A stretch of 64,000 nucleotides of DNA, taken from the NCBI RefSeq assembly GCF_900110075.1, contig NZ_FOCJ01000003.1, forward strand, positions 124,001 to 188,000. Reading direction: 5' to 3'. A program made the position numbers and the translations under genes. The stretch comes from Paenibacillus sp. OV219. GTDB taxonomy: Bacteria; Bacillota; Bacilli; Paenibacillales; Paenibacillaceae. Below the pieces are notes generated by a model. The model did no database searches. It worked only from the letters and a program-made list of their open reading frames with translations, and was not told the DNA's origin. Shown piece after piece: positions 28,989 to 30,720 of the stretch; positions within the stretch are counted from its first letter, which is position 1, and every line of letters begins with the position of its first letter.

Positions 28989-29396
28989 ATGGAGGCTAAC
29001 TCGGTCAAAGACAGCAATGCGCTTACATTAATGACATTGCCGACAAGCTCTTCTCAGCGAAGATCGGCCTTTCTGGTTGGTGCTTTTCTCGTGCTGATTT
29101 CATTGTGTATTTTACCGGTTGCGCATATCAAGACGATGGATACGCCTGGCTTTTTCCCCACTGTAACCTCAACGGTTATTTGTTTTAACTTTATTACGGC
29201 ATTCGTGTTGTTCAATCAATTCCGTGTTAATCGACTCCCGGCCGTACTGGTGCTTTCCGCAGCTTATCTGTTCTCGGCTCTCATTACGATTCCGCTCTTG
29301 CTGTCGTTTCCCGAGTTATTTACGAAGGCGGGCCTGATGAACGAAGGCCGTCAGACGCCTTCCTTGCTGTATGCGGTGCATTGCCGCACAGATTGA
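28989..29396 (+). pseudogene. MASE4-type membrane sensor domain, 3' truncated
   Basis: The frame codes about 128 residues that look like the front of a MASE4 membrane sensor: RRSAFLVGAFLVLISLCILPVAHIKT, then FNFITAFVLFNQFR and LSAAYLFSALITIPLLLSFPELF. MASE4 normally has more helices and is followed by a GGDEF or kinase domain. Here similarity stops at about LLYAVH (near 29380), where the DNA becomes the reverse complement of a histidine kinase gene. GGAGGG precedes the ATG, so it may still be translated as a short membrane protein. It is one side of a rearrangement junction. Confidence 0.72.
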
Positions 29397-30720
29397 GCAT
29401 AATCTGCTCCAGTCGGAGCGGGTCGCCAATAAAGGCGCTTGGACAGTTGTCCGTAATTTCGAACAATACCTCTATCGGCTTATTGTCGATAAGCAGTCCA
29501 GTCACGTCCGAGAGCTTGCCGAAGAAGTCATCAAGCTGAATGGGGACATGCTCAAGCTCGATTTTGCCAGCTTCAATCTTCGAGAAGTCCAGAATATCGT
29601 TAATAATCGAGTGGAGGGCGTTTGAAGCCGAGTTAATCTTGGACAGATATTCGCGCTGCACGCTAGAGAGCGACGTGTTCATCAAAATTTGAGTTAAGCC
29701 AATAATACCGCTCAGCGGTGTGCGGATCTCATGGCTCATCGTCGCGAGGAATTGGCTCTTCGCCTGATTCGCTTCATCGGCGAGAATCCGCTTATGGCGC
29801 TCGGTAATATCAGTAAAGAAGACAATAAGTTCCTTCACAAGACCATCCCGGAATACCGGTTGTATGGCAACGAGGAGGTCGACTCCTGCGATGTTGATTT
29901 CGAATCCGGACTTCTCACCCGTATGGAGTACCTCGTCGTAGTGGCTTTGCAGCTGATTAATAAACTCTTTGGGCAAAGTCTGAATATCATCGCAATACAG
30001 CCCGACGATTTCTGATGCCTTCAGTCCAAGCGTATCCATGAGCTGACCGGTTATCATCGTGCATTTATAACGGGTAGAATGCACCGCCACTTTATAGATG
30101 AGGCCGGGCTGCAGCCGAATGACTTCGTGATATTCATTCTTCAGCAGCTCCATCTGATTGGCGAGCTCGCGATTGCGCCTGAAGAAGCGCCAGAGCAGCG
30201 CTGTTGATGCCCCGCCAATGAGATTAATGGAAAGGTGCTCAGGGAGATAAGGCTGAAGCGGGAAGTTGAAGACAAAGACATAATCGACAACGAGCACGGT
30301 AGATAAAAAAAGCAGCATATAGAGCCACTTGCGTGTATGCGAGCGCAGCTTAATCGAGATAAATCCACAGCCGAGCGCAATAATCATGTTGGCGCAGAGG
30401 ACGGTCAAGAAGAGGGAAGGCACCTGTATCGTTCGAAATAAGGTAATTATGATGGCGCTGGTGACCGATGAGATTGGCCCGCCAAAATAGGCTGACATGA
30501 GGATCGCTAGAAACCGGGAATCTATGACATGGCGGTCATCCAGCGCGGCGCCGAAGAGGATAAGCACGATGCCAAAAAGGCCGTGGACAACGCCAACGGC
30601 CAGTTTATAACGCCAAGTGCGGGCAATATACCCATCTTTGTAGTAGAACAATTGTCCGGCGATTACAATAAATACAGATAATATTGAGAGATTAATAATC
30701 AAGTCACGAATTGTATTCAT
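29320..30720 (-). pseudogene. membrane histidine kinase, 3' truncated
   Basis: The product starts MNTIRDLIINLSILSVF with a 5TM-Lyt-like membrane part (about 150 residues), then a PAS-like region and a HisKA domain with FLATMSHEIRTPLSGIIG. It reaches the N box as LRLEQIMLNLCGNA and then switches to an unrelated tail PHTARKASDGLR. The rest of the ATP-binding domain (D and G boxes) and any receiver domain are missing, so kinase activity is not expected. Genuine kinase sequence ends near 29378. The ATG at 30720 has GGAG upstream. It lies 43 bases after the MarR gene. Confidence 0.8.

Follow-up and report, generated by a model that had tools for sequence, protein, structure and literature searches.

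A single deletion as the probable origin of two truncated, convergent hybrid histidine kinase genes in Paenibacillus sp. OV219

Analysis of a 64,000-base stretch of the Paenibacillus sp. OV219 genome (hereafter the window; contig NZ_FOCJ01000003.1, G000:C26:124001-188000, from an assembly of 6.10 Mb in 38 contigs) revealed two open reading frames that are the 5' remnants of two sensor kinase genes meeting tail to tail, and one deletion very probably truncated both of these convergent genes. Judging from related genomes, a stretch of about 3.8 kb between the same flanks would have been lost in one illegitimate interstitial deletion, which would have cut the 3' ends off two convergent hybrid histidine kinase genes simultaneously. 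The deletion would be recent, and both genes are presumably dead. The positions of the remnants, the junction, and the neighbouring features are summarized in Table 1.

Table 1. Features at and around the deletion junction (positions in the window)
Feature	Position	Strand	Basis
Left neighbour, intact, 166-aa ORF, VOC/PhnB-like by eye	28215..28715	+	ORF list, synteny
Terminator-like hairpin 3' of the upstream gene, left-hand landmark	28807..28832		Consensus scan (called on -) and G001 alignment
5' remnant of MASE4 hybrid histidine kinase gene	28989..29396	+	135-aa ORF
Antisense overlap of both remnant ORFs, 77 bases, tail to tail	29320..29396		ORF list
5' remnant of 5TM-5TMR_LYT hybrid histidine kinase gene	29320..30735	-	471-aa ORF
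Deletion junction (microhomology allowed for)	29375..29379		Alignment stop 29375, restart 29377
Right neighbour, intact, 158-aa ORF, MarR-like by eye	30779..31255	-	ORF list, synteny

Domain scanning of the 135-aa ORF confined its Pfam MASE4 match to profile positions 3–81 of 239, with neither a whole MASE4 domain nor any other domain found. Approximately 129–130 of its residues are native, compared with approximately 990 in Paenibacillus taihuensis, and residues 1–130 are 92% identical in protein to the product of the 5' end of the P. taihuensis counterpart; the remaining tail of about five residues is translated from the antisense of the neighbouring 5TM-5TMR_LYT kinase gene (hereafter the 5TM kinase). 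The 471-aa ORF contained the Pfam domains 5TM-5TMR_LYT and HisKA, with no match to HATPase_c at E ≤ 0.1. It has 453 native residues, compared with 839 in P. taihuensis and 834 in G001, another genome of the genus, and its last 18 residues are translated from the MASE4 antisense strand. The overlap of the two ORFs is a product of the deletion. No terminator-like site was called by the consensus scan between the ends of the two remnants, and their transcripts, if made, could therefore read into one another. Both intact neighbours are common to the window, G001, and P. taihuensis, and alignment showed that the hairpin on the left is kept in the intergenic stretch of G001.

Both genes were found whole, convergent, and at the same place in P. 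taihuensis CGMCC 1.10966 (NZ_QTTN01000039.1; G012:C39, L040/L043). There, the 5TM kinase gene (L040 5887-8403, plus strand) encodes 839 aa with 5TM-5TMR_LYT, HisKA, HATPase_c, and Response_reg domains, and the MASE4 kinase gene (L040 8433-11402, minus strand) encodes 990 aa with MASE4, HisKA, HATPase_c, two Response_reg stretches, and Hpt; the pair lies tail to tail with stop codons 23 bases apart. The earlier note had described the joined genes as unrelated, but in this relative they are neighbouring tail-to-tail hybrid histidine kinase genes. The DNA alignment between the window and P. taihuensis, with identities of 76–86% across aligned blocks, stopped at 29375 on the left and restarted at 29377 on the right, at the left edge of the range (29376-29386) in which both genes had been said to lose similarity. 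Between these matching flanks, 3,773 bases of P. taihuensis (L040:7246-11018) were without a counterpart in the window. The kinase remnant showed 87% protein identity to its P. taihuensis relative, which is full length. The P. taihuensis locus thus resembles the window in its flanking genes, in having both kinase genes, and in their convergent order, but differs in that both genes are whole and 3,773 extra bases lie between the break points, and a deletion, one of the readings proposed earlier, is supported by this arrangement. The convergent kinase pair was probably the ancestral state, the whole pair being present in one genome (n = 1).

Comparison of codons at the junction covered five MASE4 relatives that reach the join, three further loci falling short of it. 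In all five, two residues separate the position of Ala129 from the following His, whereas the window has one, which places the join inside that codon run. With each of the 24 codon pairs that could have encoded Val-Leu in the ancestor, the bases shared at the join numbered one in 18 pairs, two in 2, and three in 4. The deletion size and the microhomology were both deduced from the relatives' sequences; of the deletion with microhomology that the earlier note had put forward, the deletion held, with a microhomology of 1–3 bases, depending on the ancestral codons. Within the ±50-base flanks of both break points in P. taihuensis, the longest shared word was 6 bases in direct and 6 in inverted orientation. 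No repeat above chance was detected between these flanks, as 258 (direct) and 257 (inverted) of 289 random pairs shared words as long or longer. These features fit an illegitimate deletion that needed scarcely any homology at the join, presumably by strand slippage or end-joining.

Two other routes to the join were considered. A homology-driven deletion was rejected because the kinase-domain stretches of the P. taihuensis pair are shared only in inverted orientation (70% over 145 bases, 68% over 186 bases, and 81% over 52 bases), with none at the break points, and because the flanks were no better than random. A five-base microhomology, TGCAT, seen by eye near both break points, was not favoured since it would make the window one codon longer; it is workable only if the ancestor already lacked the codon that is present at that place in 5/5 MASE4 relatives.

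HATPase_c is the ATP-binding domain of histidine kinases, and HisKA is their dimerisation and phospho-acceptor domain. In P. taihuensis, HATPase_c occupies residues 437–552, of which the kinase remnant retains 437–453. The kinase remnant is thus left with the membrane sensor part and HisKA; almost the whole of HATPase_c, together with the receiver domain, is gone, and ATP binding and autophosphorylation should no longer be possible. In the MASE4 remnant, approximately one third of the membrane sensor domain is left, and all signalling domains are missing. From the domains lost, neither remnant gene would be expected to yield a working kinase, and both are probably dead.

To evaluate selection on the remnants, we compared substitution patterns across the native codons. 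Over 453 codons, dN/dS of the kinase remnant was 0.084 against G001 and 0.079 against P. taihuensis, compared with 0.094 between G001 and P. taihuensis, and no stop codon was present in those codons; the MASE4 remnant gave 0.060 against P. taihuensis over 128 codons. Private changes in the region of the kinase remnant (nonsynonymous:synonymous) were 5:38 on the window branch, 3:31 on that of G001, and 29:86 on that of P. taihuensis, with no difference between the window and G001 (Fisher P = 1.0). Relaxed selection on the remnants was thus not detected by either dN/dS (0.06–0.08) or branch counts. With G001 as the constrained reference, at most approximately 7% of the window branch could have been free of constraint, a rough bound based on three species and only on codons at which two agree. 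When G001 and P. taihuensis were pooled as the reference, the 5 nonsynonymous changes observed fell below the 10.4 expected under constraint, which makes any relaxed stretch unnecessary. Open remnants with low dN/dS point either to a recent deletion or to a remnant that is still constrained, and the counts fit both; a recent deletion appears likely.

A real deletion after which a remnant still serves as a functional short protein, namely a kinase-dead HisKA membrane sensor that might mix with or titrate partner kinases, was judged very unlikely. It would agree with the two open frames, with their low dN/dS, with kinase branch counts that do not differ significantly from those of the whole G001 gene, and with a ribosome-binding-like AGGAGG seen by eye upstream of the MASE4 remnant start. 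However, the same dN/dS and branch counts are expected from a recent deletion, and either ORF terminates in residues from the antisense of the other gene. In addition, when proteins of similar length in a large collection were compared, the 135-aa form had no match other than itself, on its own contig, and hence occurred in no second assembly; relatives carrying this protein as an intact short form, part of the refutation raised earlier, did not appear. The corresponding search with the 471-aa ORF, which scored the 7,996 top word-sharing candidates, gave no match at 1e-40 and missed even the query, so that this negative carries little weight. The stronger proposal, that selection keeps the kinase-dead HisKA sensor, and perhaps also the short MASE4 membrane peptide, as dominant-negative or decoy regulators, seems very doubtful; if true, a pair of kinases would have become, through one deletion, a pair of short regulators overlapping in antisense. 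Loss of function of both genes by a single deletion remains our preferred reading.

The assembly of the strain itself was searched with the 3,773-base P. taihuensis segment, which yielded 21 matches. Seven of these exceeded 200 bases, at 65–72% identity, and the shorter ones reached up to 88% over 34 bases; segment positions 288-912, 978-1589, and 3149-3773 had no match in the assembly. The matches were other histidine kinase genes, one short case being the window's own HisKA remnant. As they are paralogous only, against the 76–86% identity between the window and P. taihuensis, the 3.8-kb segment is absent from the assembly of the strain. This search for the missing 3' halves, which had been recommended as a check, thus revealed no close copy on any of the 38 contigs. 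The genome carries one other MASE4 gene, which is whole, lies on contig C25, and is 44% identical.

An assembly error, in which the 3.8 kb are present in the organism but were dropped here by the assembler, could be suspected in a genome of 38 contigs. It is nevertheless very unlikely, as the missing segment lies on no other contig of an assembly whose stated completeness is 99.99%, no above-chance repeat that could cause a collapse is shared by the break points, and the join is base-sharp inside an open contig of 498,333 bases.

Alignment of the window with both relatives showed conserved order on either side of the join: counting aligned blocks no shorter than 200 bases (E ≤ 1e-30), 14/14 against P. 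taihuensis and 15/15 against G001 were collinear and shared a single strand. The missing halves are accordingly absent from the window, as had been noted, and with the same flanks, order, and strand in the relatives, nothing was inverted or brought in from afar. Although two different genes cut at one point might suggest an inversion or a chimeric join of two distant places, as the earlier note had allowed, this was rejected as extremely improbable by the synteny on both sides and the missing-segment search, since P. taihuensis has the genes side by side in convergent orientation, flank order and strand are kept in both relatives, and neither missing half has a close copy elsewhere in the assembly.

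The G001 locus (C1:619035-629607) is closer to the window in DNA (mostly 84–92%) than that of P. taihuensis. It carries the 5TM kinase gene whole (834 aa), with 93% identity over the shared part, and its DNA alignment to the window restarts at 29377, as with P. taihuensis, while the G001 kinase continues to its full 834 aa. The terminator-like hairpin of the left neighbour is followed directly by the 3' end of the 5TM kinase gene (window 28719-29376 against G001:C1:623698-624980), and no piece of the MASE4 gene was found over the 400 bases compared. The locus is therefore like the window in its flanks and its 93%-identical kinase but unlike it in that the kinase is whole and no MASE4 gene lies between the kinase and the left neighbour. 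Either the MASE4 gene was lost cleanly in G001 and most of it was lost separately in the window, or the gene was acquired repeatedly. The DNA identity of the MASE4 remnant to P. taihuensis (85%) is similar to that of its neighbours (81–86%), which favours shared descent.

To examine the distribution of both genes, we searched further genomes with several queries. Among 39 genomes (own included), the kinase query matched G001 (93%) and P. taihuensis (87%) best, with open frames of 845 and 842 codons, respectively. The MASE4 ORF matched 6 of the 39 genomes, own included, with only P. taihuensis close (92%) and the others at 43–46%; no match was found in G001. Of 22 Paenibacillus genomes, counting the strain's own, three matched the region 28740-30735 (E ≤ 1e-40), and the two besides the strain's own lacked this join. 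With the MASE4 part of the P. taihuensis gene as the query, 6 of 394 family genomes matched, own included (E ≤ 1e-50); besides P. taihuensis itself (the query) and the remnant (93%), the matches showed 38–40% identity and included the strain's own C25 gene. Residues 1–330 of the P. taihuensis MASE4 protein retrieved three proteins from 7,994 candidates scored: itself, P. aestuarii (50%), and P. cremeus (43%).

Several other differences in gene content were observed in the window, with gene identities assigned by eye. A response regulator (25235-25888) and histidine kinase (25881-26993) pair at 25224-27072 was present in the window and in G001; P. taihuensis lacked it at that place, where its flanks lie approximately 23 bases apart. 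A 387-aa FAD monooxygenase-like ORF (2388-3551, minus strand) at 2343-3730 lies inside a block collinear with P. taihuensis and was missing at this place from G001, where the flanks meet with approximately 5 bases of overlap. A short AraC-like ORF (45543-46007) at 45471-46412 and an XRE-TPR-like regulator ORF (47706-48962, minus strand) at 47702-49006 were aligned by P. taihuensis and missing from G001, where the flanks of both meet almost exactly. Within this region, several single genes seem to be cleanly absent from G001.

The event is an ordinary gene-inactivating deletion with no new mechanism. Compared with gene-inactivating deletions and young bacterial pseudogenes as a class (for example PMC2916853 and PMC5447742), the locus is similar in showing an interstitial deletion and truncated but undecayed genes, and stands out solely in that a single event struck two convergent genes sharing a functional class. 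A literature search for publications on MASE4 together with histidine kinase returned none. The comparison corrects the annotation of both ORFs, which are truncated kinase genes rather than short sensors. It also shows sensor-kinase turnover at this site among close Paenibacillus, with P. taihuensis carrying both genes, G001 lacking one, and the window lacking the ends of both.
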